From: Prauserella alba
GTDB lineage: Bacteria; Actinomycetota; Actinomycetes; Mycobacteriales; Pseudonocardiaceae
Assembly (NCBI RefSeq): GCF_024171735.1
Contig: NZ_JAMTCH010000009.1
Location: 1-64,000 of the forward strand
Length of the DNA stretch: 64,000 bases
Reading direction: 5' to 3'
Part shown: positions 14,141 to 38,612 of the stretch, piece after piece
Numbering within the stretch: the stretch's first letter is position 1
Layout: every line of letters begins with the position of its first letter
Position numbers and translations under genes: made by a program
Notes under the pieces: generated by a model
What the model saw: the letters and a program-made list of their open reading frames with translations, nothing else
Databases searched by the model: none
What the model was told of the DNA's origin: nothing

Positions 14141-14272
14141 GCCGCCATGCTCCCCCACCGTGCTGCTCCCCCTCTGTGCTGCTCCCCGACTGTGCCCACG
14201 TACCCCGACTCGATCGCCCCACCCGACTCGATCGGGTCACCGCCCCCCTCGGTACCGTTCCGGCCACAGTTG

Positions 14273-14289
14273 ATGAAAATGACTTCCAT
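14273..14289 (+). promoter_or_regulatory. Zur/Fur-like operator candidate
   Basis: ATGAAAATGACTTCCAT is an imperfect palindrome (12 of 16 paired positions symmetric) resembling actinobacterial Zur sites of the TGAAAATGATTTTCA type. It is strikingly AT-rich in a GC-rich surrounding and ends 12 bp before the CooC-like ATG. The regulator identity is inferred. Confidence 0.4.
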
Positions 14290-14301
14290 TTGGGGGCACA
14301 C

Positions 14302-15246
14302 ATGAAGGTCGCCTTCGTGGGCAAGGGTGGCAGCGGCAAGACGACGCTCAGCGGCCTGTTCACGTCGTATCTCGCCGGTTCCGGAGCTCCGGTGCTGGCC
14401 ATCGACGCCGACATCAACCAGCACCTCGCCGTCGCACTCGGCGCGACCCCGGACGAGGCGGACGCGTTGCCCACGCTCGGCGACAACCTGACCCTGATCA
14501 AGGACTACCTGCGCGGCGAGAACCCTCGCATCCCCAGCGCCGACGCCATGATCAAGACGACCCCGCCGGGACGCGGTTCGCGACTGATGACCCCGCGTGA
14601 GGACAACCCGATCACCGACGCGTGCGTGCGCGAGATCGGCGACACCCGTGTCGCCGTGACCGGCCGGTTCACCGACGACGACCTCGGCGTCGCCTGCTAC
14701 CACTCGAAGACCGGAGCGGCCGAACTCCTGCTCAACCACCTCGTCGACGAAGCAGGCGAGTACGTGGTCGTCGACATGACCGCGGGCGCCGACGCGTTCG
14801 CCTCCGGCCTGTTCACCCGCTTCGACGTCACGTTCCTGGTGTGCGAGCCGACGATGCGCAGTGTCGGCGTGTACCGCCAGTACACGGAGTACGCGCGCGA
14901 GTTCGACGTGCGCCTCGCCGTCGTGGGCAACAAGGTCGCCGACGACGAGGACGTGGCGTTCCTGCGTGAGGAGGTCGGCGACGACCTGATCGGATGGCTG
15001 TCGACGTCGCGGCACGTCCGCGCCGCCGAGCGCGGCAGGCACCGCCCGATCGGCGAACTGGAGCCCGCCAACCTCGCCGTGCTCGACACCATGCGCTCCA
15101 CTGTGGACGCCGTCGAACGCGACTGGGCCGCCTACCAGGCGCAGGCCGTCGAGCTGCACCTGCGCAACGCCCGGGCGTGGGCCGGATCCGAACTCGCCGA
15201 CCAGGTCGACCCGGATTTCGTGCCCGCTCCCCCGGTTCGCGTGTAG
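14302..15246 (+). CDS. CooC/MinD-like ATP-binding protein
   Basis: P-loop ATPase of the SIMIBI class, 314 residues. It has a deviant Walker A FVGKGGSGKTTLSGLF near residue 6, a switch-I-like AIDADINQHLAVALG and the Walker B region YVVVDMTAGADAF. CooC relatives insert metals such as Ni into enzymes; MinD/ParA relatives handle positioning. The DADINQHL segment is of the CooC style. The start is ATG 14302 after GGGGG. It overlaps no neighbour, and is divergent from the BtuF-like protein. The palindrome upstream hints at metal-responsive expression. The client enzyme is unknown. Confidence 0.75.
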   Translation: MKVAFVGKGGSGKTTLSGLFTSYLAGSGAPVLAIDADINQHLAVALGATPDEADALPTLGDNLTLIKDYLRGENPRIPSADAMIKTTPPGRGSRLMTPREDNPITDACVREIGDTRVAVTGRFTDDDLGVACYHSKTGAAELLLNHLVDEAGEYVVVDMTAGADAFASGLFTRFDVTFLVCEPTMRSVGVYRQYTEYAREFDVRLAVVGNKVADDEDVAFLREEVGDDLIGWLSTSRHVRAAERGRHRPIGELEPANLAVLDTMRSTVDAVERDWAAYQAQAVELHLRNARAWAGSELADQVDPDFVPAPPVRV

Positions 15247-15252
15247 ACCGGC

Positions 15253-15486
15253 CTACCGGTCGTCGTCGCGGTCGTGGTCGTCGCCCTCACGCCATTCGGC
15301 GTCGGCCTCGTCCGCGGCCTCGGTGCGCGCCTTCGCAATCTCCAACGCCTGCCGGGCCGTCGCCTCGTCCGGATACGGCCCGAGCAGATCGATCGACCGT
15401 GAGACCTCGCCGTGCTCGATCTCGCCGGTGCGGGTGTTGTACCACCAGCCCGACGGCGGATTCGCGTCCTTCTTGCGCCAGCCCAT
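15253..15486 (-). CDS. Small conserved actinobacterial protein (SPOR-like segment)
   Basis: 77 residues. The first half (KKDANPPSGWWYNTRTGEIE, then RSIDLLGPYPDEATARQAL) matches a small protein widespread in actinobacteria, sometimes labelled SPOR-domain or, probably wrongly, methionine aminopeptidase. The tail is highly acidic (EWREGDDHDRDDD). It is soluble, with no signal peptide. It lies at the end of the T4SS-like operon, 24 bp after the previous stop, and converges on the CooC-like gene with a 6-bp gap. Function not known. Confidence 0.7.
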   Translation of the reverse strand: MGWRKKDANPPSGWWYNTRTGEIEHGEVSRSIDLLGPYPDEATARQALEIAKARTEAADEADAEWREGDDHDRDDDR

Positions 15487-15510: not shown

Positions 15511-16503
15511 TCACCTGCGAAAGCGGTAGGGAATCTCCGTCGGTTCCGCACCGGTCGGCCCGAACACGGCTTCGTCGCCGTCGGCGCCCGCGGCGTCGGG
15601 CACCCCGGCGCCGTCACCGGGCATCTCGTCGAACCAGTCCCGCTGCGCCGCGTCCGACCGCGCCGTGTCCGACACTGCGGTGTCCGAGGCTGCGCTGTCC
15701 GGCTGGGCGGGGTCCTGCTGCGGCTGCTGGGCCTGCTGCGGCTGCTGGGCCTGCTGCGACGACCCCTGGGGCGGCGTGGCGATGCCGGACGGAGGTGTCG
15801 GCGTGCCCGACTCCGCCGCGGGGCCCTGCGCAACCGGCCCCTGCGCCGCGGAGCTTTGCGCAGCGTGACCTTGCGCAGCCGGTCCCTGCGCAGCCGGTCC
15901 CTGCGCAGCTGGGGTGCCAGGCGGCGGTGCGGCGAAACCCGACGGCGGTGTCTCCCACACCGGTTGCGGGCCGATGTTCATCGGCGCGGCCTTCGCCTGC
16001 TGCGGTACGGCAGGTGCCGCCTGCGGACGGCTCGGCTGCACCACGGGGTCCAAACAGGACACCAGCACGGTCACCGAATCGGGATCGTCGACCTTCCGGC
16101 CACTGCGCTCGCGGTAGACCATCTCACCCTCGGAGTCGATCTCGACGAGATAGCCGGCCTCGGCCAGCTGCTCCTCGTCGAGGTCCACGAGACGTTCGGG
16201 CCGAGAGGGAACGACCCGGTAGGCGGGCCAGTCCAGCCGGGCATGACCGTCGTGGAACTGGGCGAGGAGGTTCACCAGTTGTTGCTGCCACGGCAGCGGC
16301 ATGTCCTCGACGAGAGTGCGCGGCAGCACGACGTAGCCGTCGGTGACTCCGGGCTGCTGACGCCGCAGGTAGTCGGACAGCGGCGTACTCGAAGCGGGCG
16401 GCGCGTTCCGCGGAGCCGGCGGGCGTGCCTGCATCGCGAACGGGTCCACCTGCGCTGCCCCGCGGCCCGCGTTCTTCCCGCGTTTGCCCCACTTCTTGCC
16501 CAC
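15511..16503 (-). CDS. Pro/Gln/Ala-rich protein of the T4SS-like operon
   Basis: 330 residues, not assigned to a family. Residues 1-20 are basic (MGKKWGKRGKNAGRG). Residues about 45-150 look folded (PLSDYLRRQQPGVTDGYVVL, MPLPWQQQLVNLLAQFHDGH, and YRVVPSRPERLVDLDEEQLA). Residues 160-290 are a disordered linker containing AAQGP repeats and QQAQQPQQ. The tail is acidic. No signal or membrane segment is seen. GTG 16503 has AGGAGG 5 nt upstream. It follows the VirB1-like gene by 15 bp, so it probably belongs to the same operon; a cytosolic adaptor or substrate role is only a guess. Confidence 0.7.
   Translation of the reverse strand: MGKKWGKRGKNAGRGAAQVDPFAMQARPPAPRNAPPASSTPLSDYLRRQQPGVTDGYVVLPRTLVEDMPLPWQQQLVNLLAQFHDGHARLDWPAYRVVPSRPERLVDLDEEQLAEAGYLVEIDSEGEMVYRERSGRKVDDPDSVTVLVSCLDPVVQPSRPQAAPAVPQQAKAAPMNIGPQPVWETPPSGFAAPPPGTPAAQGPAAQGPAAQGHAAQSSAAQGPVAQGPAAESGTPTPPSGIATPPQGSSQQAQQPQQAQQPQQDPAQPDSAASDTAVSDTARSDAAQRDWFDEMPGDGAGVPDAAGADGDEAVFGPTGAEPTEIPYRFRR
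15830..15912 (-). repeat. Degenerate 15-bp tandem repeats encoding AAQGP
   Basis: Repeated CCTGCGCAGCCGGTC-like units encode successive Ala-Ala-Gln-Gly-Pro peptides in the linker of the Pro/Gln/Ala-rich protein. Such repeats are prone to length change. Confidence 0.6.
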
Positions 16504-16518
16504 GACACCCTCCTGCGT

Positions 16519-17520
16519 TCACACACCAGGCCGGACGGCCTGCCGGACGAGCCCACCCTCGTCCCACGACACGTCACGTACGTGTACCGGGACGCCGCTC
16601 TGCTGCGCCTCGACAATCTTGCCGTTCCCGAGGTACATCGCCACGTGGTGAATGGTGCTCGGGTCGGCCGTATCGTACGCCCAGAACAGCAGGTCACCGG
16701 GTTGTGCCTGCTCCACCGGCAGCATCGAGCCCGCCTTGTACTGGTCGCGCGACACCCGTGGAATCGTGATACCGGCGGCCTCGTAGGCACGCAACATGAG
16801 TCCGGAGCAGTCGTACGAATCGGGCCCGGTGGCACCCCAGACGTACGGTTTGCCGCGCTCGCCCATCGCGAAGTCGATCGCCCGCTGCGCCGACGAGTTC
16901 GATGCCAGCACGACGTCCCCGCGGGCTTCGCCGCAGCCGCTCACGTTGCGGATCTCGCCGACGTTCTGCACCAGGTGGACGGCCATCGGCTCCCACTCGT
17001 GGTACCGGTCGGGGAACGCGGAGCGCTCGACGGCCTGCGCGGCCTCGCCCGGGCGCATGTGCTGCCAGCCGGGCACCTCTTCGAGAACGTCGTAGAACTT
17101 GTTGACCTGGTACTGCGGGTTGGTGACCTGCTCCGGCGTGCCCCAGCCCATCGACGGCCGCATCTGGAAGATACCCAGCGAGTCGCGGTCGCCGTAGTGC
17201 ACGTTCTTCAACCGCGATTCGGTCATGCCCGCCTGAATGGCGATCTGCCACGCACGGGGTGACATGCCGCGTTCCTTGCCGATCTTGATGACCAGGGATG
17301 CGATCTCGCGCTGCTCGCCTTCGAGGGAGGCGGCGTCGGCCTCGCCGCTACCGGCCTGCCCCGGCCTCGTCGGGCCGATGGCGGCATCACACGACAGTTC
17401 CGTCACGTTGCCGCTCATGGCCTGCTGGCGCGAGCCGTCGATGACGGTGATCAGCCCGACCGCCAGCACCACCGTGAGCGCGGCCGCCATCACGCATCCG
17501 AACAGCAGTCCCCCGCGCAC
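16519..17520 (-). CDS. VirB1-like wall hydrolase: lytic transglycosylase-like + NlpC/P60
   Basis: 333 residues. One N-terminal membrane anchor (LLFGCVMAAALTVVLAVGLI, about 5-27) is followed by a lysozyme/SLT-like domain (about 75-180: QIAIQAGMTESRLKNVHYG, then DSLGIFQMRPSMGWG) and an NlpC/P60 domain (about 215-333) with Cys in DSYDCSGLM and His in IHHVAMYLG. The two activities together cut both glycan and peptide, as VirB1-type proteins of Gram-positive T4SS do to pass the wall. GTG 17520 follows GGTGGG; only 2 bp separate it from the preceding VirB8-like gene. An open frame extending upstream has no support. Confidence 0.88.
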   Translation of the reverse strand: MRGGLLFGCVMAAALTVVLAVGLITVIDGSRQQAMSGNVTELSCDAAIGPTRPGQAGSGEADAASLEGEQREIASLVIKIGKERGMSPRAWQIAIQAGMTESRLKNVHYGDRDSLGIFQMRPSMGWGTPEQVTNPQYQVNKFYDVLEEVPGWQHMRPGEAAQAVERSAFPDRYHEWEPMAVHLVQNVGEIRNVSGCGEARGDVVLASNSSAQRAIDFAMGERGKPYVWGATGPDSYDCSGLMLRAYEAAGITIPRVSRDQYKAGSMLPVEQAQPGDLLFWAYDTADPSTIHHVAMYLGNGKIVEAQQSGVPVHVRDVSWDEGGLVRQAVRPGV

Positions 17521-17522
17521 GG

Positions 17523-18140
17523 CTAGCCCACCCGGCTGTAGTCGGAGACGCGCCACCCCTGGTCGGTCTTGATCACGGTGACGGACAGGTCCGGGCCGTC
17601 GGTGGAGATCGTCGCGTCGACCGAGCGCGAGTACGACTCGCCGGCCTCGGCCTTGCCCTCGACCTTCGTCGCCGGGATGTTCGCCGGGTCGACACTGCGC
17701 ATGACCGGCAGGAACTCGGCGGTGGTGTACGGACGCAGACCGTCGAGCCACGCGTCGACGGTCGTGCCGTCGTCGTGGTCAACCCATGCCGCGGCCCACT
17801 GTTCGGCGACCCGCAGTGCCTGCGGCGAGGCCGGTGCCTCGGTGGGCGTCTCACGCGGCTCGGTCAGCCGCGTGACCGGCGGCAACTCGGAACCGCCGGC
17901 CTCACCGGAACCGTTCGACGTCCCGTACTCACCCGGCTGCGCACCCCCGGACTCGGACGTGGGCGGGGTGGCACCGGAGGCCTGCCCGTCGGAGACGAGG
18001 CGGGGCACGACGATGCCGGTCGCGGCGATCAGCGCGACGAACAGGATGATCGTCCCCACCAGATGCGACGGCGATCGCATCGGCCAGCTCCACAGGCGCC
18101 GGTAGATCGCCGCGCGGCCGCGGTTGGTGCGAATCGGCAT
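17523..18140 (-). CDS. VirB8/TcpC-like bitopic membrane protein
   Basis: 205 residues: short basic cytoplasmic N-terminus, one helix (LVGTIILFVALIAATGIVV, about 27-47), a Ser/Gly/Pro-rich linker, and a C-terminal domain from about 107 (ALRVAEQWAAAWVDHDDG to WRVSDYSRVG). That domain has the alpha/beta layout of NTF2-like VirB8/TcpC domains, which scaffold T4SS channels outside the membrane. Sequence similarity is low, so the assignment rests on topology, fold pattern and operon place between the VirB6- and VirB1-like genes. Confidence 0.65.
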   Translation of the reverse strand: MPIRTNRGRAAIYRRLWSWPMRSPSHLVGTIILFVALIAATGIVVPRLVSDGQASGATPPTSESGGAQPGEYGTSNGSGEAGGSELPPVTRLTEPRETPTEAPASPQALRVAEQWAAAWVDHDDGTTVDAWLDGLRPYTTAEFLPVMRSVDPANIPATKVEGKAEAGESYSRSVDATISTDGPDLSVTVIKTDQGWRVSDYSRVG

Positions 18141-18152
18141 CTCCGCCAGCCC

Positions 18153-20228
18153 CTACCGCACCGCACGGTCGGTGTCGCGGACGTCGTCCGGGCGCACTTC
18201 GAGCCCACGCGACGGCCGGTACAGCACGTACACGGGTTTGCCGGCGACCAGTTCGCTGTCCGCCCGCCGTGGTTCCGGCGCGGCCGGTGCCGGGGCCGGA
18301 GCGGCTGCGGGCGTGGCCTGCGCACCGCGCTGGCCACCGCCCCGCCCGGTGTCGAACGTTCCCGCAGGCTGATTCATCCGCGACGGCACGACGAACGGGT
18401 CCGGATCGTCGGCGCGATCGATCCCGCGGTCGGTCACCGGCGCCGTGTCGACACGCCTGCTCGGCACCACCATCGGCTGCTGGTCACCCGGCGCGCGGTT
18501 CGGCGGGGAGGTACTGAACACCGGTGGTGCCGCCCCGCCGCCCGCGGGCAGTGCCGGGTTCGCACCACCGACCTGCTGTCGCGTGCCCGGCCAGTGGGAG
18601 GCCGGGTGCGCGCCGGTCTGCGGCCCGTCGAGCCGCTCAGCGCTGGCGACCGTCGCCTCCGGGCGGAACCGGCCGCCCGCCCGGGCTGCGCCGGCACCGC
18701 GGGTGGCCGCGCCGCCCTCGGCGTCGTCGTCGCTCTTGACGGTCTGCCAGAACTCGTCCTGCGGGGTCGGCTCGGACGACTTCTTACGGAAGCGGGAGAA
18801 CAACCCGCCTCGCTGGTTCGGCACGGCGGAACCGACGAGGCTGACGGACGTCTCGACCATCTGCCACAGCCGCCGCGCCGGCCTGCCGACGACGAACATC
18901 ATGATCGTCACCAGGCCGGCGATCGCCAGCTGCACGATCATGTCCATTCCGGACGCGGCGAAGATCGCCTGCAGCAGCAGTGCGTGGATACCGGCGAGCA
19001 CCGACAGCACGAGCAGGTTGAACGCCACGCCACCGATGACGCGCCCGATCCTGCGCAACACGTCGTGCTGCAGGATCGCGAGCAGTCCGATCAACGGCGC
19101 GGTGAGCGTGAACAGCCGCACGAGGATCTGCGCCAACAGCACGGCCAGCTTGGCGACGAGCTGGAACAACGAGTAGGCGAGGCTCTGCAACATCGCCAGG
19201 AAACCCGTGCCGGCGCGAGAGCCGTCCTCACCGCTGAAGTAGCCGCTGGAGGCCTGCAGCTCGCCCGCGATGCGGTTGAACTCGGCCTTCTTCTCGTTGA
19301 TGACGCTCTCGTCGCCGTCGTCACCCGCTCGCATCTGGTCCCATGTGAACGCCTGCGCGTCCAGCAGATCGGGGCCGTACTCCCTGGCTTCCTCGTCCTG
19401 CTGGTCGTTGCCGAACGTGCCGCGCAGCCAGTTGTCGTAGACGACCTCCTCGTGCAGTTCGGTCGGCAGGATGTGCCGGACGACGCGGTCCTGTTCCTCG
19501 TCGACGAACCCGGCCTGGATGTTGGTGGTGGTCTGGACGATCGCGTGGTCGATTTCGTCGTGGTATTGCAGTAGCGCCAGCGACGACGCCGCCAGCCACA
19601 GGCCGCCGACGGCGAACAGCGCACGCTTGCTCACCGTCGCGAGGTCACCGCGCCAGATGTTGCGGAACAGGAAGATCGCCAGCAGCAGGGCCGCAAGACC
19701 GAAGAGCTGTGCGTAGACGTTGTTGTAGACCGCTTCCGCGCCCCGTGACACGGCCTCGGTGAGGGGCTGGAGCACGCCGCCGTCGAGGACCTCGTAGTGC
19801 AGCGCGTTGGTGGCGCCGACGATGTTCTTGGCGACGTTGAACAGCTGGTTGCCCAGCCAGGTGTCGACGGTCGTGCTCGGGTCGGTGATGCCGCCCATGC
19901 CGCCGCTGTCGCAGTCGTGGACGTGCCACACCATGCCGGCGTAGCTGTAATCGGCGTAGGCGCTGCCTGCCTCGCCGTTGCCCTCGGGGTTGTCGATCGC
20001 GCCGACCATGCCGGAACCGGGACGTTCCGGGTTCGGCGCCTCGCAGCCGCCGCCGTCCAGCTGCGCTTGTGCGGGCGAGGCGAGCAGCGCCTGGCACGCC
20101 AGCACGGCGACCGTGGCCAGCATCGCCGGCCCGCGCCGGGCGACGCGGGGCCGTCCCGGTTCCCGGCGGCGGGCACGCAGCCACACCCACGCGCACACCA
20201 GTGCGGCGAGCACCGTCATCGTGATCAT
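18153..20228 (-). CDS. VirB6/TrbL-like polytopic membrane protein
   Basis: 691 residues. The N-terminus has a hydrophobic helix, then a signal-like segment ending LLASPAQAQ. An extracytoplasmic domain with Cys (GGGCEAP, VHDCDSGG) follows. About six helices come next (e.g. LFGLAALLLAIFLFRNIW; LVAKLAVLLAQILVRLFTL; FNLLVLSVLAGIHALLLQAI; LAIAGLVTIMMFVVG), then a 220-residue Pro/Gly/Ala-rich cytoplasmic tail. This is the layout of TrbL/VirB6 channel subunits. Its ATG overlaps the VirB4 stop by 4 bases, indicating translational coupling. Confidence 0.75.
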   Translation of the reverse strand: MITMTVLAALVCAWVWLRARRREPGRPRVARRGPAMLATVAVLACQALLASPAQAQLDGGGCEAPNPERPGSGMVGAIDNPEGNGEAGSAYADYSYAGMVWHVHDCDSGGMGGITDPSTTVDTWLGNQLFNVAKNIVGATNALHYEVLDGGVLQPLTEAVSRGAEAVYNNVYAQLFGLAALLLAIFLFRNIWRGDLATVSKRALFAVGGLWLAASSLALLQYHDEIDHAIVQTTTNIQAGFVDEEQDRVVRHILPTELHEEVVYDNWLRGTFGNDQQDEEAREYGPDLLDAQAFTWDQMRAGDDGDESVINEKKAEFNRIAGELQASSGYFSGEDGSRAGTGFLAMLQSLAYSLFQLVAKLAVLLAQILVRLFTLTAPLIGLLAILQHDVLRRIGRVIGGVAFNLLVLSVLAGIHALLLQAIFAASGMDMIVQLAIAGLVTIMMFVVGRPARRLWQMVETSVSLVGSAVPNQRGGLFSRFRKKSSEPTPQDEFWQTVKSDDDAEGGAATRGAGAARAGGRFRPEATVASAERLDGPQTGAHPASHWPGTRQQVGGANPALPAGGGAAPPVFSTSPPNRAPGDQQPMVVPSRRVDTAPVTDRGIDRADDPDPFVVPSRMNQPAGTFDTGRGGGQRGAQATPAAAPAPAPAAPEPRRADSELVAGKPVYVLYRPSRGLEVRPDDVRDTDRAVR

Positions 20229-23200
20229 GCGGCGTCCCTGCCGGTGCCGTTCTTACCCCTGCCGCCTGCACGGGCCGGTTCCTGTCCGCCACCCGTGCCG
20301 CCGGTGTCTCCGCCGTCGTCGGGGCCGTGCTCGTCGAAACCACCGTCGTCGAAACCGGTGTCGTCGAAGGCGGTGTCGTCGAAGGCGGTGTCGGACAGCA
20401 GTTGGTCCTCGGTGAGCCCGACCTCCAGCTCCGCCTCGAGTTCGAGATCCTCCTCCCGATCACCACCGAGCTGCGGCTGCGCGGGCTGCGGCTGCGTCGA
20501 ACGCGCGGTGGTCTGCTCCGCCGTCCGGTAAGGCCCGTCGGTGGCTCCGCCGTCGGTGGCTCCACCGTCGGCGCGGGTCTCCGCCGCGGGCGCCTGCGCG
20601 GGGCGTTCTGGCGTCGCGCCCGGTGTGGTGTCGAGGGTCTCCCGCAGCTGCTGCAGGTGCGGTCCGGTGAAGTCGACGCGGATGCGCTCCACGCCGCCCG
20701 CACCGTCACCGAAGATGAACTGCCGCGGCTCGCGGTCGCGTTCGGCCTCGCGCTGCCCGCCGGGGCGGCGGCCGAGCGCGGACACGACCTGCTCGTAGCC
20801 CGCGCCCACCGGCACCTTGAGCAGCCGCAGCGCGTCGGCCTGCGCCTCGTCGTCGTCGAGCCTGCCGACGAACACCGAGTCCAGCAGCGCGACGAAACCC
20901 TGGATCTTCAGGAAGTCGGCGGGGATCTGCGACGACAGCAGCACCCGGACGTTCCACTTACGCGAGTCACGGGCGAAGCGGTTCATCAACACCCGGCCCG
21001 TCGGCACCTCCGACAGGAAGAACGCCTCGTCGATCCACACGCCCTTGCGCGCCGACTTCGGCTTGTCGTACACCGAGCGCGCCGTCAGCCAGGCGGCGAG
21101 GTTCATCATCTCGACGCCCAGCGCTTCGGCGTCGGTCCAGTGTTCCCGGCCGACGCTCTCCTTCGGCAGGGTCAGTCCCGCCATGGTGAGCACGGTGAGC
21201 CGGTCGTCCCGCTGGTCGGTGTACGGATCGGCGTCGGCTTCCGGGATGAGCAACGACATGCGTTCGCGCAGTTCGTCGAGGAAGTCGGCGACGACGACGG
21301 CGTGGTCGTGGTGCTCACTGGAGTCGCGGCGCAGCGCGTCGATGACCTGACCGGGGTCGGCGTCGTGCCGCCCGCCGACCATGCGGACCGCACGCAGCAG
21401 CACGATGCGGGTCTGCGGCATGCGTGCGACGTCGTACGGCAGCACGCCGGTGAGCACGTCCAGCACAAGCCGCCTGCGCGTGGCCCCGGCGAGGGCGCGT
21501 TCCCTGCGCCACGCGCGTTCCGGGTCCTCCTCGTCCAGGAAGTGTTCGAGCTGCGGCTCGGCGACGACGCGATACGGGTTGAGGATGCCGGGCTGGGCGT
21601 TGAGCAGGTTGATCGGCCGCGCATACGGCCGCAGCTCCGGCAGCTCGCACAGCCGCGACAGCGGACCGGACGGGTCGAGGATCGTCCAGTGCGCACCGGC
21701 GCGGAGCGTCTTGTAGACGATGCCGCCGCCGAGGAACGACTTGCCACCACCGAGACCGGCGACGATCGAGGTCAGCCCGGATCCGTCGCGGATCTCCTGC
21801 GCCATCCACGGGTCCCACGCGACGGGACGGCGGGTGGCGGTGCAGGTCTCGCCGAGCAGGATGCCGCGGCGGTCGCCGACCTCGGCCGTGGCCGTCGGCA
21901 CCGACGAGGCGGCCCAGACCACCGAACCACGGCGCAGATATGCCCCGGAGGCGAGCGACTCACCGGGGATGAACTCCCTGGCCAGCGCGTACTGCGCCTC
22001 GGGGTGCTCGATGGCGATCTTCGGCTTGTACAGGTCGAGCAGCTGCTGGGCGAGCTTGAGCGCCTCGCGTTCGGTGCTGCCCGAGACCGACATGCGCCAC
22101 CACGACCGCACCCGCGTCGCGAGCGCGGTGAACCCCGACGTCATCTCGTCGTCGACCTCGAGCACCCGCGAGGCCTGCCGGGCCAGCGACTGCGGTGGTT
22201 CGAGTTCGTGCTCGTCGGTGTAGTGCTTGACCTGCGAACGCACCTTGTTCATCTGCCGCTGCAACTCGCCGGCGACCTCTTCGGGCCTGCGCACGTAGAT
22301 GCGGGCGGACCACTCCACGGGCGCGGGCAGGCGGTCGGCGTGCTGCACCCACGGATCGTCGACCTCGGGGATCTGCAGGCCGTGCATCTGGCCGACCGTC
22401 AGCACGGCGACGTGGCGCTTCACCCCGGCATTCGATCCGGTACGGCCGCGCACCGTCACCGTGGGCGCGTACGGATCGGCGTGGAAGTCGGCGGCGTCGG
22501 TGAAGCTGGCGAGGTCCTCGGGCTCCCACGTCGACGTCGGCACCGCGGGCATCGTGCGCGGCGCGGGCAGTCCCAGCGAGCACGACCGGTGCATCAGCCA
22601 CGACATCTCGTCGGCGCTGACCGGCCTGCCTTCGAGACCGGACGAACCGATGACCCCGTCGAGGTGCTCGACCTCGGAGTCGAGGGCGGACAGCTCGGCG
22701 TCGACGGCCTCGGGGAGGATCTTGCGCAGCAGGGGCGCGGCCCGTTCGACGGCGCGGTCCATGACGCGACGGGTCTGCACCTGTACGCCCAGGTAGACCT
22801 CCTTCTCCGCCATCGACCGGCCCATCAGCTGCTGCTGCTCCCCGACGAGGTAGTCGTCGAAGGACGGCGCCCCGGGCACGTCGGCGGGCCGGTCGTGGGC
22901 GTTGTGCACGTGCGCCTCGGCCCACATGCGGATCGGGTACGGGCGGGTGGTGACACGCAGGTGCATCCACCGGCCCTGCAGCTCGGCGTACTGGCCCGCG
23001 ATCGCCGCGATGAGGTCCTGGCGCTGGGAGTCCGACCGGAACGACCAACGCTGGGGCGCGAGCCGGTACCAGGCGTACACCTCGTTGCCCGTGCGCAGCA
23101 GATGTCCGTCGATCGAGCGGGCGGCGATCGACGGTGTGTAGGTCGGAATCGCCTGTTCCCCGGGCAGTCTGCGGCCCCGGCCGTCGGTCTTCGTCGACGG

Positions 23201-23251
23201 TGCCGGATGCGCGGCCTTCCTGCTGGTGCCGCTTCGGTCGCGACCGAACAA
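20225..23251 (-). CDS. VirB4/TraC-type T4SS ATPase
   Basis: 1008-residue conjugation-type ATPase that powers assembly or substrate passage of type IV secretion. The N-terminal VirB4 domain has the SIDGHLLRTGNEVYAWYRL opening. Walker A, GLGGGKSFLGGGIV, lies at about residue 500; WTILDPSGPL follows, and Walker B is GVWIDEAFFL at about 740, with LLSSQIPADF after it. The first glycine-rich position reads GLGGGKS instead of the common GxxGxGKS. The last 110 residues are an acidic, disordered tail with FDDTAFDDTGFDDGGFDEHG repeats. It overlaps the VirB6-like gene by 4 bases. Confidence 0.9.
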   Translation of the reverse strand: MFGRDRSGTSRKAAHPAPSTKTDGRGRRLPGEQAIPTYTPSIAARSIDGHLLRTGNEVYAWYRLAPQRWSFRSDSQRQDLIAAIAGQYAELQGRWMHLRVTTRPYPIRMWAEAHVHNAHDRPADVPGAPSFDDYLVGEQQQLMGRSMAEKEVYLGVQVQTRRVMDRAVERAAPLLRKILPEAVDAELSALDSEVEHLDGVIGSSGLEGRPVSADEMSWLMHRSCSLGLPAPRTMPAVPTSTWEPEDLASFTDAADFHADPYAPTVTVRGRTGSNAGVKRHVAVLTVGQMHGLQIPEVDDPWVQHADRLPAPVEWSARIYVRRPEEVAGELQRQMNKVRSQVKHYTDEHELEPPQSLARQASRVLEVDDEMTSGFTALATRVRSWWRMSVSGSTEREALKLAQQLLDLYKPKIAIEHPEAQYALAREFIPGESLASGAYLRRGSVVWAASSVPTATAEVGDRRGILLGETCTATRRPVAWDPWMAQEIRDGSGLTSIVAGLGGGKSFLGGGIVYKTLRAGAHWTILDPSGPLSRLCELPELRPYARPINLLNAQPGILNPYRVVAEPQLEHFLDEEDPERAWRRERALAGATRRRLVLDVLTGVLPYDVARMPQTRIVLLRAVRMVGGRHDADPGQVIDALRRDSSEHHDHAVVVADFLDELRERMSLLIPEADADPYTDQRDDRLTVLTMAGLTLPKESVGREHWTDAEALGVEMMNLAAWLTARSVYDKPKSARKGVWIDEAFFLSEVPTGRVLMNRFARDSRKWNVRVLLSSQIPADFLKIQGFVALLDSVFVGRLDDDEAQADALRLLKVPVGAGYEQVVSALGRRPGGQREAERDREPRQFIFGDGAGGVERIRVDFTGPHLQQLRETLDTTPGATPERPAQAPAAETRADGGATDGGATDGPYRTAEQTTARSTQPQPAQPQLGGDREEDLELEAELEVGLTEDQLLSDTAFDDTAFDDTGFDDGGFDEHGPDDGGDTGGTGGGQEPARAGGRGKNGTGRDAA
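20330..20396 (-). repeat. 15-bp tandem repeats in the VirB4-like C-terminal tail
   Basis: Four to five degenerate GTCGTCGAAGGCGGT-type units (plus strand) encode successive FDDT/FDDG peptides in the acidic tail of the ATPase. Confidence 0.65.
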
Positions 23252-23254
23252 GGC

Positions 23255-23770
23255 CTACCTCCCGACCGACGCCGGCATACGGCCGGTGCGCCGGTGCGCT
23301 CGTGCTGTGCTGTCTGCAGCCGGGCGTCCGGACGTCGGCCCGGCGGGCCGGACCGGATGCGCGACCCCGCGGGGACGGGCCCCGTGAGGGCCGCGCTTGT
23401 GTTTCGGCAGGGGCCGCTCCGCCCGGACCTTGATCTTGCTCGCGCTGACGGCACCGCCGTCGGCGCGGGTCTTCTCCCTCGGACTCTGCAGCTCGCGCAA
23501 CCACATCGCGAACACAGCCGCCAGCGGGCGCTCGTGCGTGATCTTCGCGGTGATCATGCGGGTGATCGCGATGGCGAGGACGAACGCCCATGCGGTGCTG
23601 AAGAACCCGAAACCGATGCCCATCTGGCGTTCGATACCGAGGACCACGAGGAACACCGGGATGCCGACGCCCCAGGCGACGTACCGCGCGCGCCACGGGA
23701 ACGTCGCCTTCGGCGGGCCGAGCCAGACGGCGTCGACCCGGTAGATCTCGTCGTCGGTACGAATGCGCAC
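23255..23770 (-). CDS. VirB3/PrgI-like membrane protein
   Basis: 171 residues. Two closely spaced helices (YVAWGVGIPVFLVVLGI, about 30-46; FFSTAWAFVLAIAITRMI, about 56-74) near the N-terminus, then a long basic cytoplasmic tail (KHKRGPHGARPRG and further Arg-rich sequence). Short two-helix proteins immediately before the VirB4 gene are typical VirB3/PrgI subunits. GTG start at 23770, 15 nt after the preceding gene; 3 bp to the VirB4 gene. Confidence 0.7.
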   Translation of the reverse strand: MRIRTDDEIYRVDAVWLGPPKATFPWRARYVAWGVGIPVFLVVLGIERQMGIGFGFFSTAWAFVLAIAITRMITAKITHERPLAAVFAMWLRELQSPREKTRADGGAVSASKIKVRAERPLPKHKRGPHGARPRGVAHPVRPAGPTSGRPAADSTARAHRRTGRMPASVGR

Positions 23771-23785
23771 GTCCGCGAGCCCCGG

Positions 23786-24052
23786 TCAGCCCGTGAACAG
23801 GCCGGCGAGCCACTCGCCGACGTCGACACCGAGCCCGCTGACGGCGAGACCGATGAGCGCGAGGGCGATCACGACGCCCCCGAGCCTGCGCATCACGCCG
23901 GCGTTGTCGCCTTTGCCGCCACCCAGCCAGAGCAGCAGCAATGCGACGGCGAGCAGCACGAGCGGGACAATGTTGTCGAGGAGCCAGGTGCGGACTCCTC
24001 CGGTGCCGAGCTCGCCTTGCTGCGCCAGAGCCGCAAGCGTCATCGTGGTCAT
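23786..24052 (-). CDS. VirB2-like small two-helix membrane protein (pilin-like)
   Basis: 88 residues with two hydrophobic helices (IVPLVLLAVALLLLWLG, about 28-44; GGVVIALALIGLAVSGLG, about 58-75) separated by a short polar loop (GGKGDNAGVMRRL). Size, topology and position as first gene of the operon fit the VirB2/TrbC class, although no processed signal peptide is evident. GGGAG lies 6 nt before the ATG. As family sequences are poorly conserved, this remains a positional assignment. Confidence 0.65.
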   Translation of the reverse strand: MTTMTLAALAQQGELGTGGVRTWLLDNIVPLVLLAVALLLLWLGGGKGDNAGVMRRLGGVVIALALIGLAVSGLGVDVGEWLAGLFTG

Positions 24053-24083
24053 CGCCTACTCCCGAGTGCTTGGAGTGTGGTGC

Positions 24084-24104
24084 CGGTACGGATGGTCCGT
24101 ACCG
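24084..24104. promoter_or_regulatory. Perfect 9-bp inverted repeat before the T4SS-like operon
   Basis: CGGTACGGA-TGG-TCCGTACCG, 31 bp upstream of the first ATG and downstream of the candidate promoter. It could be a repressor operator or a hairpin in the 5' leader. Confidence 0.6.
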
Positions 24105-24140
24105 CGCGGGTGGTCCAGCACTTCCCGTGTTCGAACAACA

Positions 24141-24169
24141 TCATGGCGTGACGAGGGGTGGCGGTCAAA
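24141..24169 (-). promoter_or_regulatory. Candidate promoter of the T4SS-like operon
   Basis: On the minus strand TTGACC (24164-24169) and CATGAT (24141-24146) are separated by 17 bp, giving a start about 80 nt before the first gene with the inverted repeat inside the leader. The -10 matches consensus at four of six positions. Confidence 0.4.
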
Positions 24170-28200: not shown

Positions 28201-29493
28201 TCACTCACCCTGCGGTTTTGCGTCTCCGGACGCTACTGGGGCCGTCGTCGGGCCGTCCGAGTGATCGCCGGACGGTTCGGTCCATGCCCCGTCGATCGCC
28301 GCTCGCGTCCGTTCGGCGCTGGAGGGCATCAGGTGGGTGTAGGTCTTCAATGTGAAGCCCGGGTCGGTGTGGCCGAGGTACTCCGACAACGCCCGGATCG
28401 ACTCCCCCGCGTCAAGCAGCACCGATGCGTAGTGGTGGCGCAGGGCGTGCATGCCGTCGTCACGGCCCGGGGTCGGGATACCCGCGGCCACCACGGCCGG
28501 GCGCCAGATCCTCTCGTTGAAGTGCTGCCGCCCGACCGGATTCCCGCGAGGTGTGGTGACGAGCAGCTCGACCGTCGTCGGTGTGCCTCCGGGCTCACCC
28601 CACGGCAGCGTCACCGAGACCGGCGGGAACGTTTCCCTGTACTCATCGATCAGGTGCAGGACGGCATCCGAGAGCGGAACGTCCCTGGTTTTGCCCCGTT
28701 TGGGCCGTGCGAACACCAGGCGACCGCGGACCTTGCGCACCTGCCGAAGGACGCGGACGACCCGTTCTTCCCGATCGATCGCATCCACACCGAGGCCGAA
28801 GAGCTCCCCTTGCCGTAGGCCGGTTCCCGCACCGACCGGGACGAGGATGCGATAGCGCGGCGGGATCCCGTCCCGGACCTTGCGCACTGTCTCGCGGCTC
28901 CACGGCACGACCTTGTGTTCGTCCGATTTCGGCCGTTTCACCGACTTCGCGTGGCACGGGTTCGTCTTGATCAGGTTGTCGTCCACCGCCGCGGTGAGGA
29001 TTGCCGAAAGATGGGCGAAGCACACGGCCTGATGTCCGGCCGATCTGCCGGCCTCCTGCATGGACCTGATCCACCCGCGAACATCGGTCGGTTTGATCGC
29101 GCTCAGAACCATGTTCCCGAAGTACGGTTCGATCACCGAGCGGAGACGGCTCTCCGTGGACTCCCTGCTGCTCGCTTCCATGGTCTGGCCCGCGAGCCAC
29201 ACCTTCCCGAAGTCTGTGAACAGGACCTTGCCGGCGTTCGGGTCGACGTAGTCGCCGGCCTTGACCTCTCCCTCTACCTCGAGGAGGAAGTCCTCGGCCT
29301 TCTTGCGAGCCCGGTCGGGAAAGCTCTTGGACCGTTCCTTGCCGTCCGGGTCGAAGTAGCGCGCCTTGTAGCGCATGCCCGTGCCGTAGCGTTCCGTCTT
29401 CTCCATGACGGGTTTACCGCGCTTGTTGAGGACGACCTCCCCGGTGTCGGGGTCTTCTTTCGGCCGGTACCAGCGGTCTTGGATGTGTCCCAT
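28201..29493 (-). CDS. int: Tyrosine recombinase (AICE integrase)
   Basis: 430 residues. Site-specific recombinase that joins attP to the rnpB attB. SAM-like arm-binding domain (about 75-170; VLFTDFGKVWLAGQTMEASS) and a catalytic domain with the full RHRHY set visible: Arg in GAGTGLRQGELFGL, HxxR in MHALRHHYASVLL, the second His in LGHTDPG, and Tyr in LKTYTHLM. The start at 29493 overlaps the xis stop (TGATG). The gene ends 11 bp from attL, which places it at the attP edge as in other AICEs. Confidence 0.95.
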   Translation of the reverse strand: MGHIQDRWYRPKEDPDTGEVVLNKRGKPVMEKTERYGTGMRYKARYFDPDGKERSKSFPDRARKKAEDFLLEVEGEVKAGDYVDPNAGKVLFTDFGKVWLAGQTMEASSRESTESRLRSVIEPYFGNMVLSAIKPTDVRGWIRSMQEAGRSAGHQAVCFAHLSAILTAAVDDNLIKTNPCHAKSVKRPKSDEHKVVPWSRETVRKVRDGIPPRYRILVPVGAGTGLRQGELFGLGVDAIDREERVVRVLRQVRKVRGRLVFARPKRGKTRDVPLSDAVLHLIDEYRETFPPVSVTLPWGEPGGTPTTVELLVTTPRGNPVGRQHFNERIWRPAVVAAGIPTPGRDDGMHALRHHYASVLLDAGESIRALSEYLGHTDPGFTLKTYTHLMPSSAERTRAAIDGAWTEPSGDHSDGPTTAPVASGDAKPQGE

Positions 29494-29681
29494 CAGGCCG
29501 CCTCGATCTGCTCGGCGAACCAGGCGCGGACCTTGGCGGGGTCGTAGCGGAGGTGGCGGCCGATCTTGCACACCGGCGGGCCGGCCCCGCGCCACTTCCA
29601 CTGATACAGCGTCTTGACGGGCACCCGGAGGTAGTCGGCGACGTCGTCGACGGTCCAGAGTTCCTCGATTCGCACGGTCAT
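29493..29681 (-). CDS. xis: Excisionase / MerR-like HTH protein
   Basis: 62 residues of the helix-turn-helix 17 (excisionase) type: LWTVDDVADYLRVPVKTLYQ, WKWRGAGPPVCKIGRHLRY. It probably bends DNA at the attachment sites to favour excision. The start ATG 29681 has GGGGGAA upstream; its TGA overlaps the int ATG by one base, so the two are translationally coupled. Confidence 0.9.
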   Translation of the reverse strand: MTVRIEELWTVDDVADYLRVPVKTLYQWKWRGAGPPVCKIGRHLRYDPAKVRAWFAEQIEAA

Positions 29682-29692
29682 CGGTTCCCCCT

Positions 29693-31414
29693 TCACGCCG
29701 CGGCCTGGTCGGTTGCCGAAAGTTCGGCGGCTTGTTTGGCCTGGTCGTATTGCTGGCGCCATCGGCGTTTCTGGGCGATCGAGTGCAGCAGTAGTTGGGT
29801 GCGGTCGGGCTGTTTCGGGTCGCCGCGCGGGATGGGCACCCATCGGTAGCGGGTGCCGTCCGGGTCGTCGGGGGTGTCGAGTTCCGGCGTCACGCCGACG
29901 ACGCCGAGGGTGCGCATCACGTGCTCGCGGCGCTGCTGGCGGTGTTCGGTGAGGTTCTTGCCCGACCACTTGCGCGAGACGAGGCACCGCCGGCCCCGGT
30001 AGCCGAGGGTCGAGGGCTTGTGGGCCTTGCCCTTACACGCACCGGGCACGAGGCCTTTGCCGGCGTCCTCGGGCTGGATGCCATACAGCAGCCAGTTCGC
30101 ACACCCCTCGGAGCACGGTTCCCACCGCAGCGCCTCGGCCAGCCGGTCATGGTGGCGTTTCTGGGCGTCGGTGTCGGCTTCGTAGCAGGAGCCGAGGTCC
30201 TTGGTCAGGTATTTGACCAGGTAAGACAGGCACTTACCGGCCTGGTCGGAGCCGGCGTTGACACCCTGAATATCGATCCCGCCCGTGCCGAACCGGACGA
30301 CGTGGGCGGGTTCGGCGTCGGGGTCGAAGGTCTCGTCCAACGCCTCATCCCACGACCGCAGTTCCTGGCCGGTGTCGGGGTCGACGTAGGCCTCGGAGGC
30401 CTCGTCCCACACCGGCGCATGTTCCGGCGAGTAGACCGGAGTGTCGTGGGTCGGCCACCACACCTGGTGATACGTGGCCGCGGCGACCTGCCGCAGCAGT
30501 GCTCGCGGGATGGTGCCGCGGACGGCTGCGTGCAGGTGCATCGCGAGGCGTTTCTGGGGCTCGACGGCGGCGAAGTACTGCACGTTCCACCCGCACGCCC
30601 GCCGCAGGTTCTGCCAGAACCGGTCGACGAGCTTGCCGAAGTGGATCGCGTCGCGGGCCGCCCGCCGGTAGTCGTACCGATCCCTGTCGAGGGGTGTGCC
30701 GACGATGCCGTCATCGCGATGGTGCACCCGCCCGCATCGGCAGGGTTTCGGGTGTTCGGGCTTCTTGGACGCCGAGTGCACCGGCCCGTAGGAATCCAGG
30801 GTCAACGTGAGGAACGTTGAGGGGCGGAAGACCTTGCCGTCGGGGGTTTCGAAGGCCCGGCCGACGGTGGTGTCGGCGACCTGCCGCCGCGGCAACTCCG
30901 GAGCATCCTGCCTCCGCCGGGTCGAGCGCACCGTCCGCGGCTTCTTCTCAGCGACCGGCTCCTTCTCCCCGCGCAGCCCATCAGCCTTAAGCAGGGCGTG
31001 CGCGGCGTCGATCTCGGAATCGATCTCGGCCACGGCCCGGTCGTCGCCGATGCCGACGGCCAGGGCGCGGGCCTCGGTGAGGTCGGCGATCTGGCCGAGC
31101 GCGGCCCGCTGCTGGGTCGTGGGTTCTTCGGTCTCGACCTGGGGTTCGTCGGTCAGGTGCCAACCTTCACGGGCCTGGTGCATCCGCAACCGGCGCGCCT
31201 TGTCCGCGCACGAGGGGCACACCGCGCTTTGGGTGGCCCCGCAGGGCACGGGCACGTGGACTTTCTCGCCCGTGGTGGTGTCGAGGCGTTCGAGCACCAT
31301 CGGCCGCAAACAGGCGCCCAGTTCTTCGGCCGTGGATTCGGCCATGTCCTCGAGGGTGGCCGGGATGATCTTCCCGACCGGCGCCGGCATGTCCATGGTT
31401 TCCGTGGTGGTCAT
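29693..31414 (-). CDS. repSA: RepSA-like replication initiator (HUH-type)
   Basis: 573 residues. AICE replication protein that nicks the origin for rolling-circle replication after excision. HUH motif MHLHAAVRG (about residue 290) follows the YFAAVEPQKRLA strand; the candidate catalytic tyrosines are in CLSYLVKYLTKDL (about 410-420). The Cys-rich N-terminus (CGATQSAVCPSCADKARR) and the CRCGRVHH and CSEGC segments suggest zinc binding, as in RepSA proteins. Its ATG overlaps the traB stop (TGATG). Confidence 0.88.
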   Translation of the reverse strand: MTTTETMDMPAPVGKIIPATLEDMAESTAEELGACLRPMVLERLDTTTGEKVHVPVPCGATQSAVCPSCADKARRLRMHQAREGWHLTDEPQVETEEPTTQQRAALGQIADLTEARALAVGIGDDRAVAEIDSEIDAAHALLKADGLRGEKEPVAEKKPRTVRSTRRRQDAPELPRRQVADTTVGRAFETPDGKVFRPSTFLTLTLDSYGPVHSASKKPEHPKPCRCGRVHHRDDGIVGTPLDRDRYDYRRAARDAIHFGKLVDRFWQNLRRACGWNVQYFAAVEPQKRLAMHLHAAVRGTIPRALLRQVAAATYHQVWWPTHDTPVYSPEHAPVWDEASEAYVDPDTGQELRSWDEALDETFDPDAEPAHVVRFGTGGIDIQGVNAGSDQAGKCLSYLVKYLTKDLGSCYEADTDAQKRHHDRLAEALRWEPCSEGCANWLLYGIQPEDAGKGLVPGACKGKAHKPSTLGYRGRRCLVSRKWSGKNLTEHRQQRREHVMRTLGVVGVTPELDTPDDPDGTRYRWVPIPRGDPKQPDRTQLLLHSIAQKRRWRQQYDQAKQAAELSATDQAAA

Positions 31415-32931
31415 CAGGCGGCACCCCCGTCGATCGAGTGCAGCACCGGCCCCGGCCGGAACGTCTGCGCCAGTTGCCGGATGTCGTCGTCGGTCAGATA
31501 CGCCGCCCGCACCCGGGACACGGCCCGGGAGCCGTCTTCGACGACGTAGCCCACACCGGGCGAGGTCTCGGCGATCTCCTCACACCGCGCCCCGCGGTCC
31601 CGAGCACCGTCGCCGAGGACCATGTCCGGCTGGGACGCCTCGACCAGCCGCAGCCCGATCCGCGTCGGGAACAGGTCCCGCCAGCGCACCACCTCCTTGC
31701 GCGGGTCCTGCAACGCGCCGATCACATGCATCCCGGGCGCCCGGCCCTTCGTCAGCAGCCGGCCCAACGCGGCCTCGGCCCGCTTCTGCCGTTTGGAATC
31801 GGAGATGAATGCCGTGACGGAGGCGAGTTCGTCGATGACGACGAGGATGAACGGCATCGCCGTCGAGGGCTCCAACGTCCGCGCGTAGCCGGCCAACAGC
31901 GAGGCACGCCGGTCCGCCTCATCAGCCAGGCCCTCCAAGAACGAGACCGCTTCTTCCTCAGCCTCGCTGCCGTCCATGGTCACCAACTGTCGGAACAACT
32001 CCCGGCCGAAGCCGAGTTCCATGCCGCCCTTCGGGTCCAGGCCCACGACCTGCACGAGGCCGTCGCGGATGGCCGGGCCGATGCCGGCGAGGATCGACCA
32101 CAGCACCGAGCCCTTACCCGAGCCCGTGGCGCCGGCCAGGAGCGTGTGAGTGCCAAGCAGGTTCACCAGCCAGCGGCCGCCGTCGTCACGCTTACCGATC
32201 GGCACCGCCGACAAGTCCACATCGGACCCGGCCGTGGCCGGCGCCTGCACGTGAACCAGCGGATCACCGAACGCCAGGCGCACGAACACGGTTCGCGCTT
32301 TGTCGTCGCGGCGGAACTCCGCAGGCAGCACGCGCGCCATCCAGGCCGGTAGGTGCCAGCGGGGAGCCGGCACGACCCGTGCTTCGCGGGCGTGCATGGT
32401 CTCGGTCAGCTCCTCCAGCCGGTCGCTGAACGCCGCACGGGTGATCCCGGACGGAAGGCGGACCGACAGGACGTCGGAGAACCGGCCATGACGGACGAAC
32501 ACCAGCCGCGGCGCCACCCGCTTGTGCGAGCGCTTCTTCACGGTCAGGTTCGCCGCGACCATCAGGTCCGCCCAGTTGCGGAAGTAGCGGCGCCGACGCC
32601 ACCAGATCCGAAGCGGCGACGTGACCCACCGGTCGAACGAATCCGATGCGATGACCAGCCAAGCGACGAACGTCGCCGCCGTGACCACGGCCTCGGCCAC
32701 GGCCACCCACGTGAGTCCAGCAAGGTGGGTCCACACCGGCACCAACACGGCCGCCACGACCAAGCCGTTGAACACCACGAACGACCCCGCATACGTCAGG
32801 ATCGAGCTCAGCAGCCGCGCCAGAGCGAGCAGGCCCCGCCCGATCCAGCCCGACACACCGTCCGGGCGATGCCGGCGCGGGTGAACCTCGATCTCCTGCC
32901 AGCCGGCGTTCTTATCGATCGTCAGAGACAT
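31414..32931 (-). CDS. FtsK/SpoIIIE-type DNA translocase (AICE transfer protein TraB/TraSA)
   Basis: 505 residues. Single-protein mover of double-stranded DNA between mycelial cells. Three or four N-terminal helices (e.g. LTYAGSFVVFNGLVVAAVLV, WVAVAEAVVTAATFVAWLVI) anchor it. The motor has Walker A GATGSGKGSVLWSIL at about 240, VVGLDPKGGMELGFG, and Walker B FILVVIDELASV at about 345. C-terminal segments (MHVIGALQDPRKEVV) are typical. It overlaps both neighbours by TGATG stop/start junctions. Confidence 0.92.
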   Translation of the reverse strand: MSLTIDKNAGWQEIEVHPRRHRPDGVSGWIGRGLLALARLLSSILTYAGSFVVFNGLVVAAVLVPVWTHLAGLTWVAVAEAVVTAATFVAWLVIASDSFDRWVTSPLRIWWRRRRYFRNWADLMVAANLTVKKRSHKRVAPRLVFVRHGRFSDVLSVRLPSGITRAAFSDRLEELTETMHAREARVVPAPRWHLPAWMARVLPAEFRRDDKARTVFVRLAFGDPLVHVQAPATAGSDVDLSAVPIGKRDDGGRWLVNLLGTHTLLAGATGSGKGSVLWSILAGIGPAIRDGLVQVVGLDPKGGMELGFGRELFRQLVTMDGSEAEEEAVSFLEGLADEADRRASLLAGYARTLEPSTAMPFILVVIDELASVTAFISDSKRQKRAEAALGRLLTKGRAPGMHVIGALQDPRKEVVRWRDLFPTRIGLRLVEASQPDMVLGDGARDRGARCEEIAETSPGVGYVVEDGSRAVSRVRAAYLTDDDIRQLAQTFRPGPVLHSIDGGAA

Positions 32932-38581: not shown

Positions 38582-38612
38582 GGAGGACGAGTTGGCATGT
38601 AAGCCGGATTCT
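38582..38612. repeat. attR core (31 bp) within the rnpB 3' end
   Basis: Identical to 28159-28189. It includes the 3' strand of the RNase P P1 helix and the conserved ACAGAATCCGGCTTACATG-type segment before it, so integration leaves the RNA sequence unchanged. Confidence 0.9.

Follow-up and report, generated by a model that had tools for sequence, protein, structure and literature searches.

The window analysed here is a 64,000-nt stretch of the Prauserella alba genome (assembly GCF_024171735.1, contig NZ_JAMTCH010000009.1, positions 1 to 64,000), whose minus strand carries at 24052-15511 seven genes, g1 to g7, in the order VirB2-VirB3-VirB4-VirB6-VirB8-VirB1-like plus a Pro/Gln-rich protein, resembling the channel part of a type IV secretion system (T4SS). 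An original prediction made from the sequence alone had read this same order, which was confirmed and found to be conserved in 75 of 80 related loci. It had also described tiny gaps and 4-bp overlaps; the gaps were indeed small, at 2-15 nt (g1-g2, 15 nt; g2-g3, 3 nt; g4-g5, 12 nt; g5-g6, 2 nt; g6-g7, 15 nt), whereas a single 4-bp overlap was found, between g3 and g4. The end coordinate that it gave, 24169, is the first base of a promoter-like match ahead of g1. The features of the operon are:

24140..24169, minus strand: sigma-70-type promoter-like match ahead of g1, TTTGAC-N19-ATGAT, with a spacing of 17 nt to a CATGAT box
23786..24052, minus strand: g1, candidate VirB2-like pilin, 88 aa, two transmembrane (TM)-like segments (28-46, 60-78) and a short basic loop
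23255..23770, minus strand: g2, VirB3-like, 171 aa, with TM-like segments at 28-46 and 51-69, near the N terminus
20225..23251, minus strand: g3, VirB4-type ATPase, 1008 aa
18153..20228, minus strand: g4, VirB6-like, 691 aa, a polytopic membrane protein with a long hydrophilic tail and seven TM-like segments
17523..18140, minus strand: g5, VirB8 homologue, 205 aa, one TM segment, a Pro-rich linker and an NTF2-like C-terminal domain (residues 102-205)
16519..17520, minus strand: g6, VirB1-like wall hydrolase, 333 aa, N-terminal TM segment, lysozyme/SLT-like domain and C-terminal NlpC/P60 domain
15511..16503, minus strand: g7, cytoplasmic-looking protein, 330 aa, conserved domain (~36-153) and disordered Pro/Gln-rich tail
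15253..15486, minus strand: eighth small gene, 77 aa (WWYNTRTGE...), 24 nt behind g7, a candidate member of the operon

The operon thus holds the parts by which a T4SS is recognised, a VirB4 with intact Walker motifs, a VirB8 with an NTF2-like domain and a VirB6-like polytopic protein. The g3 product matched PF12846 over its cut-off (E 2.3e-19) and the TcpF model at E 2.7e-19 (68.6 bits against a cut-off of 1100), and its Walker A (GLGxGKS), Walker B (WIDEAF) and RDSRKWN motifs were invariant in 19 aligned sequences, with a mean column identity of 75%; the VirB4 profile gave no match to solved structures at E 0.01. The g4 product matched NF046089 (CD3337/EF1877 family) at E 3.6e-10, below the curated cut-off, and g5 was assigned to VirB8 by its predicted fold, which resembles those of TraM, TcpC and PrgL. 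In g6 the NlpC/P60 domain (PF00877, E 3.4e-25; DCSG and HHVAMY motifs) had matches that include the Tn916-like hydrolases 4hpe and 9ubf, and the middle part, residues 70-183, matched the muramidase 8b2e (E 5.4e-8). Nothing over cut-off was returned for g1 or g2 in scans of family models (Pfam, NCBIfam), g1 giving no match at all in Pfam; g1, g2 and g4 were each present in 79 of the 80 loci, and g2 has relatives in other families.

At the 3' end, the tail of g7 terminates in an FGPTG...PYR motif in several genera (alignment of 26 rows). A fold search with g7 gave no credible match, its predicted model being weak (mean pLDDT 61), and a g7 profile found no gene at the fetched loci from outside the family; kinship with a 201-aa gene behind the operon of another family (labelled f3) was ruled out (hhalign probability 0.3%). 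The 77-aa gene had a tblastn match in 63 of the 80 loci, and its product gave no family match over cut-off. Convergent with the operon lies a MinD/CooC-like ATPase gene (window 14176-15246, plus strand), found in 33 of the 80 loci. No match was returned by padloc for five proteins of the operon locus, or by a phage search at 1e-5.

Ahead of g1, the promoter-like sequence recurs as TTTGAC-N16-19-ATGAT in 38 of the 78 upstream stretches compared, which come from the window and 77 loci (3 of the 80 gave none), at a median of 87 nt before the gene, against a mean of 0.0 in 100 rounds of mononucleotide shuffles, which preserve base composition alone. An Rfam scan revealed no conserved RNA leader near g1. 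A conserved upstream block was considered as a leader and rejected, as it was common to the window and one locus (L001) and not to the more distant sequences compared.

The 80 loci, the best 80 of 264 relatives from a first scan with flanks cut at 10 kb, come chiefly from Prauserella, Saccharomonospora, Amycolatopsis, Lentzea, Saccharothrix, Kutzneria and their kin. We take their family (f1) to be the Pseudonocardiaceae from its genus-named relatives, for four of which the family name was printed; f3, f85, f87, f103, f104 and f105 label other families. All seven genes were present in 75 of the 80 loci and colinear in all 75, a gene order far beyond chance, and the first six in 76, again all colinear; the remaining four, each short of at least one of the first six and left out of the colinearity count, are contig ends or 100-N scaffold gaps. 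At L007 and L018, both from Saccharomonospora, genes seemed to have been lost, a reading rejected because the breaks are such 100-N gaps.

The VirB4 profile, to which the family-wide count applies rather than to the whole operon, matched 249 of 249 sampled family genomes from 46 of 46 genera, and the family forms a single branch of the VirB4 tree, so that the distribution is neither mobile nor patchy. The flanks recur as well, with genes that we take to be RNase H/phosphatase-like (50/80) and SCO6745-like (39/80) on one side and RNase II-like (47/80) on the other; by tblastn, troA was found in 58 of the 80 flanks and panB in 36. Compared with three Prauserella, the ratio of nonsynonymous to synonymous substitution (dN/dS) was 0.10-0.13 for VirB4, 0.12-0.25 for g7 and 0.07-0.24 for four flanking genes, and 0.00, 0.04 and 0.14 for g1 in the three pairs. 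These data support the operon as a set of resident, fixed chromosomal genes of the Pseudonocardiaceae, in keeping with the resident apparatus that had been proposed.

The absence of adjacent DNA-processing genes, also predicted, was upheld by the protein scans. No relaxase was found among the ten proteins scanned at 13.3-24.1 kb. Across the genome of P. alba no match to PF12696, PF08751 (TrwC) or PF03432 was found, and none to PF02534 over cut-off. In 41 relatives, PF12696 was matched in 23, PF08751 in 15 and PF03432 in 6; in 25 family genomes, VirB4 was found in all 25, PF12696 in 14, TrwC in 11, PF03432 in 5 and none of the three in 8, so no relaxase or coupling protein covered by these profiles always accompanies the operon. 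The genome does carry a separate, unrelated integrative and conjugative element (ICE) on contig C3 (L140, 386000-405999) with its own VirB4, a VirD4-like protein and Replic_Relax. This ICE also has TrbL-like and NlpC/P60-looking genes, its hydrolase resembling g6 by eye.

Upstream of the operon lies a mobile element of another kind, an actinomycete integrative and conjugative element (AICE), which the original prediction did not mention:

28201-32931, with further genes to ~35.8 kb: AICE, comprising a tyrosine integrase (28201-29601), RepSA and an FtsK translocase

The combination that defines an AICE, integrase, Rep and FtsK without a T4SS, is true of this neighbour and not of the operon, g1 of which lies ~4.1 kb from the end of the integrase gene. 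The AICE integrase was matched upstream in 2 of the 80 loci (L004, L010) and the AICE FtsK in 2 (L010, L037), so element borders do not flank the cluster in its relatives. The integrase matches in L004 and L010 lie on the same side of the operon as in the window, perhaps at a shared insertion spot; no tRNA gene was found in the window. The chromosomal codon bias that had been offered as a sign of residence was confirmed as a measurement (correlation of 0.993 with ten pooled window genes) and fell as proof, since codon usage separates little when the neighbouring AICE scores 0.978 too.

The closest plasmid relatives differ in what lies beside the channel genes. VirB4 was found at E <= 1e-20 in 87 plasmid records (Rhodococcus 62, Prescottella 11, Streptomyces 6, others 8), 35 of which are typed as mobilizable, and an R. 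qingshengii record carries MOBP relaxases. These plasmid T4SSs (Streptomyces pSM17C and 891-h, Pseudonocardia p1, Rhodococcus, Gordonia) share the order of the family operon, including the wall hydrolase, as matched by position and size in five annotated plasmid stretches, and their VirB4s are 32-42% identical to the family VirB4 (30 rows); they differ in being plasmid-borne, in their longer tree branches and in a nearby FtsK/TcpA-type ATPase. In four of the five stretches an ATPase of ~690 aa adjoins the channel operon or lies a few genes from it; Pfam assigned it to FtsK/SpoIIIE in three of the four, and for that of pSM17C, which matched nothing in Pfam at 0.01, the annotation reads T4SS DNA-transfer protein. 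Pseudonocardia p1 has only a weak 665-aa P-loop candidate, ~9 kb behind VirB4. When 60 listed VirB4 records of the 87 were compared with the listed ATPase rows, at least 42 had an FtsK-type ATPase at a distance of 3.9-5.6 kb from their VirB4, a lower bound because 13 records are absent from the listed ATPase rows; for the other 5 the listed ATPase lies only elsewhere in the record.

A hidden Markov model (HMM) of this plasmid ATPase matched the plasmid-like loci of one genome that had helped to build it (G866) and chromosomal f105 loci in 3 genomes (E 2e-34 to 3e-32). Against the predicted open reading frames (ORFs) of the 80 family loci its sole hit, at E 6e-4, was an AICE FtsK, that of L010; in the window it hit nothing but the FtsK of the AICE (E 9e-7). 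VirB4s or EccC-like proteins account for the remaining 11 hits (E 4e-6 to 5e-4).

Beyond the family, the VirB4 profile matched 121 of 298 genomes in an order-wide draw, and a narrow version 5 of 396 in a phylum-wide draw; in a class-level draw a broader profile matched 56 of 197, many of them weakly around the P-loop. Counts from the class-level, f3 and EccC-like ATPase draws are among the genomes listed, their negatives being listed in part. The clear class-level relatives were f1, f3, f103 (15 genomes with VirB4, E 6e-117 to 1e-79) and the genomes G956 and G139, and the same gene order was seen at most f3, f85 and f87 loci fetched and at one f103 locus (L225). In a VirB4 tree (a quick search with support from the Shimodaira-Hasegawa-like approximate likelihood ratio test, SH-aLRT, alone; L229 and L230, with no VirB4 ORF predicted, left out), f1, f3, f85 with f87, and f103 each formed a single branch, that of f1 with a support of 99. 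The f105 loci L220-L224 hold another chromosomal T4SS, with a TcpC-like protein (PF12642), an FtsK/TcpA-like ATPase, a CHAP hydrolase, DnaJ-like proteins and, near some, a thioredoxin-like gene.

Gene content and order, a family-wide VirB4, purifying selection and no adjacent coupling ATPase found are what the operon displays. We judge it somewhat more probable than its rivals together that the operon is the domesticated remainder, membrane channel and pilus, of a conjugation machine of the Gram-positive type, fixed in the chromosome of the ancestor of the family and vertically inherited without its loading parts; these would be the FtsK/TcpA- or VirD4-type coupling ATPase and the relaxase that plasmid relatives have nearby. 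Conjugation of the operon's own DNA is unlikely, and the machine probably makes a fibre on the cell surface or carries some other cargo across the wall. We infer a VirB4-driven VirB2-type fibre or conduit because the channel and pilus part has been kept, the DNA-loading part is gone and VirD4-less T4SSs are known in diderms, where they serve in protein export or DNA uptake or may form adhesive pili (PMC12857230, in its accessible part). In such a machine VirB4 (g3), docked on VirB3 and VirB6 (g2, g4), would extract the VirB2-like subunit (g1) from the membrane and push it out through a channel in the envelope to which VirB8 (g5) contributes, g6 opening the peptidoglycan locally. The product could be a wall-spanning pilus or a conduit for adhesion or cell-cell contact; alternatively, the machine may export chromosomally encoded cargo passed to VirB4 directly or via g7.

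A set of VirB proteins without VirD4 might also suggest DNA uptake, in which a VirB2/VirB4 pseudopilus would pull DNA through the wall and a ComEC-type channel would pass it across the membrane. Whole mycelium of Amycolatopsis takes up DNA without protoplasts, and papers whose accessible parts mention its direct transformation exist, but this may be purely physical. The VirB2-3-4-6-8 set resembles that of H. pylori ComB (PMC12857230, accessible part), but ComB has VirB7-10 parts as well, and we regard uptake as unlikely. A service role, in which visiting plasmids, ICEs or AICEs with their own coupling ATPase would borrow the channel in trans, could draw on the plasmid relatives, which carry such an ATPase near their own channel operon, on the AICE with its FtsK translocase upstream in the window and on the integrase matches upstream in L004 and L010. 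AICE transfer is reported to need a single FtsK-like protein and no T4SS (PMC3218068, accessible part), and a channel used by parasites would not account for purifying selection throughout the family, which leaves this role a slim chance. That the operon is a decaying or cryptic integrated conjugative element might be supposed from the nearby AICE and from the relaxase and coupling protein not found beside it, but such a remnant is ruled out, as nearly as we can judge, by a VirB4 in every sampled genome under purifying selection, to which the conserved promoter match, the intact reading frames and the tracing of two apparent gene losses to scaffold gaps add.

A further rival is a T4/T7 hybrid, in which an EccC-like FtsK ATPase with small coiled-coil partners would be the coupling motor and the channel would secrete these small proteins. 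In f3 such an ATPase gene, with EccC models as its best NCBIfam matches, lies behind the operon with two genes between in 5 of 8 fetched loci (L162, L171, L172, L185, L186), but it was not seen at L170, L190 or L207; in f105 it lies ~12-18 kb from a distant VirB4 on the same contig in 9 of 12 genomes with both, but in 3 of the 4 fetched genomes of f105 the cluster contains a TcpA-like ATPase of its own. Mycobacterial plasmids are described as combining VirB4 and VirB8 with type VII secretion system (T7SS) genes and a MinD-type ATPase (PMC12803027, accessible part), and the MinD-like gene lies beside the family operon in the 33 loci noted above. Among the genomes listed, however, 15 of f103 have VirB4 and no match to the ATPase, and 14 of f104 have the ATPase and weak (best 2.9e-12) or no VirB4-profile hits; the ATPase of P. 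alba itself is on another contig (C2), and the WXG100 matches of the small proteins were below cut-off. As a universal partner the EccC-like ATPase was therefore rejected, its linkage holding in part of f3 and f105 and strict co-occurrence failing. No T7SS family was found among the ten proteins at 13.3-24.1 kb or three AICE proteins, the only ones scanned for them. We consider an EccC-type motor for this channel quite unlikely, and the fuller claim, a resident T4SS coupled by an EccC-like (type VII) ATPase as a chromosomal T4/T7 hybrid secreting small coiled-coil proteins, very doubtful.

Several points weigh against the domesticated, loader-less module. Plasmid VirB4s were placed between f1 and f3 or the other chromosomal families, with modest support (92/82), and therefore the ATPase may have been lost repeatedly, or gained by plasmids. 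A coupling ATPase may be encoded far off, the FtsK-family complement of the genome having been searched in part; EccC-like homologues, unlinked, were present in all 15 family genomes listed, which also speaks for the hybrid motor; and an ORF adjoining a locus may have been missed because the gene finder was crude. The Pfam profiles for relaxases and coupling proteins miss some types, as the C3 ICE shows: its VirD4-like protein scores 19.8 bits, short of the PF12696 cut-off of 22, and its Replic_Relax protein likewise went unreported. The genome-wide relaxase negative covers PF08751 and PF03432, Replic_Relax being of another family. Two genera of the family (g241, g292) have the operon, with a VirB4 of 60-64% identity, at another chromosomal site (L175, L176, L188), which adjoins an Fe-S oxidoreductase-like gene, with dnaK alongside in two of the three loci (L176, L188). 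As for the gene assignments, g1 and g2 are named VirB2 and VirB3 from gene position, protein length and topology (two TM-like segments each), the NCBIfam models for VirB4 and VirB6 were matched at scores under their cut-offs, and Foldseek alone placed an unrelated protein top for g5 (E 3.2e-3).

To our knowledge, most Gram-positive T4SSs described are conjugation machines belonging to mobile elements. The nearest of these, MPF_FA/MPF_FATA (Tn916/ICEBs1, pCW3 Tcp, pIP501, pCF10), resemble the family operon in the TcpF match of g3, in the VirB8 fold shared with TraM, TcpC and PrgL and in the NlpC/P60 hydrolase of g6, kin to those of Tn916-like elements; the family operon differs in having no adjacent coupling protein or relaxase found, in lying off mobile elements and in being core to its family. 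Here, then, a T4SS operon belongs to the fixed core genes of a large actinomycete family, without the loader of many plasmid relatives, offering a natural test of what VirB4 and a channel alone can do in a monoderm cell (pilus, export, uptake) and bearing on how conjugation machines turn into cellular organelles. ComB, Ptl, Brucella VirB and Bartonella Trw likewise have a channel and VirB4 without a coupling protein (PMC12857230, accessible part), but span two membranes where the family operon serves a monoderm envelope. The Patescibacteria T4SS is resident, chromosomal and monoderm-type, with VirB2-like genes and mostly no relaxase, and is thought to be repurposed (PMC12102498, accessible part); it belongs to another phylum, has an epibiont role and, by the same part of that paper, has coupling homologues in many genomes, mostly far from virB4.

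Chromosomal virB4 clusters without a relaxase were noted as a class, MOBless T4SSs, by Guglielmini et al. 2011 (PMC3158045), who found few T4SSs in actinobacteria; the accessible part of that survey does not describe family-wide fixation. One conserved or lone chromosomal virB4-like gene is reported in Frankia and Micromonospora lupini (PMC2266912, PMC4182475); the accessible parts of these papers describe it neither as an operon nor as a lineage-wide core or a machine without a coupling protein. A survey of actinobacterial ICEs (PMC3218068, accessible part) is further prior art. We recognised no account of such a system in the literature covered, partly available as it was and with subscription journals mostly outside it, and a literature search pairing VirB4 with Pseudonocardiaceae returned nothing.

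Two further observations were made. EccC/FtsK-like ATPases of ~890-1010 aa occur at L198 (8265-10997), L199, L201-L203, L233 and L234, mostly near small helical, coiled-coil-looking proteins, and these loci are possibly an actinobacterial secretion system of their own. Elsewhere in the window, an RNase P RNA (class A) was found at 38584-39005 on the minus strand, far over the gathering score.

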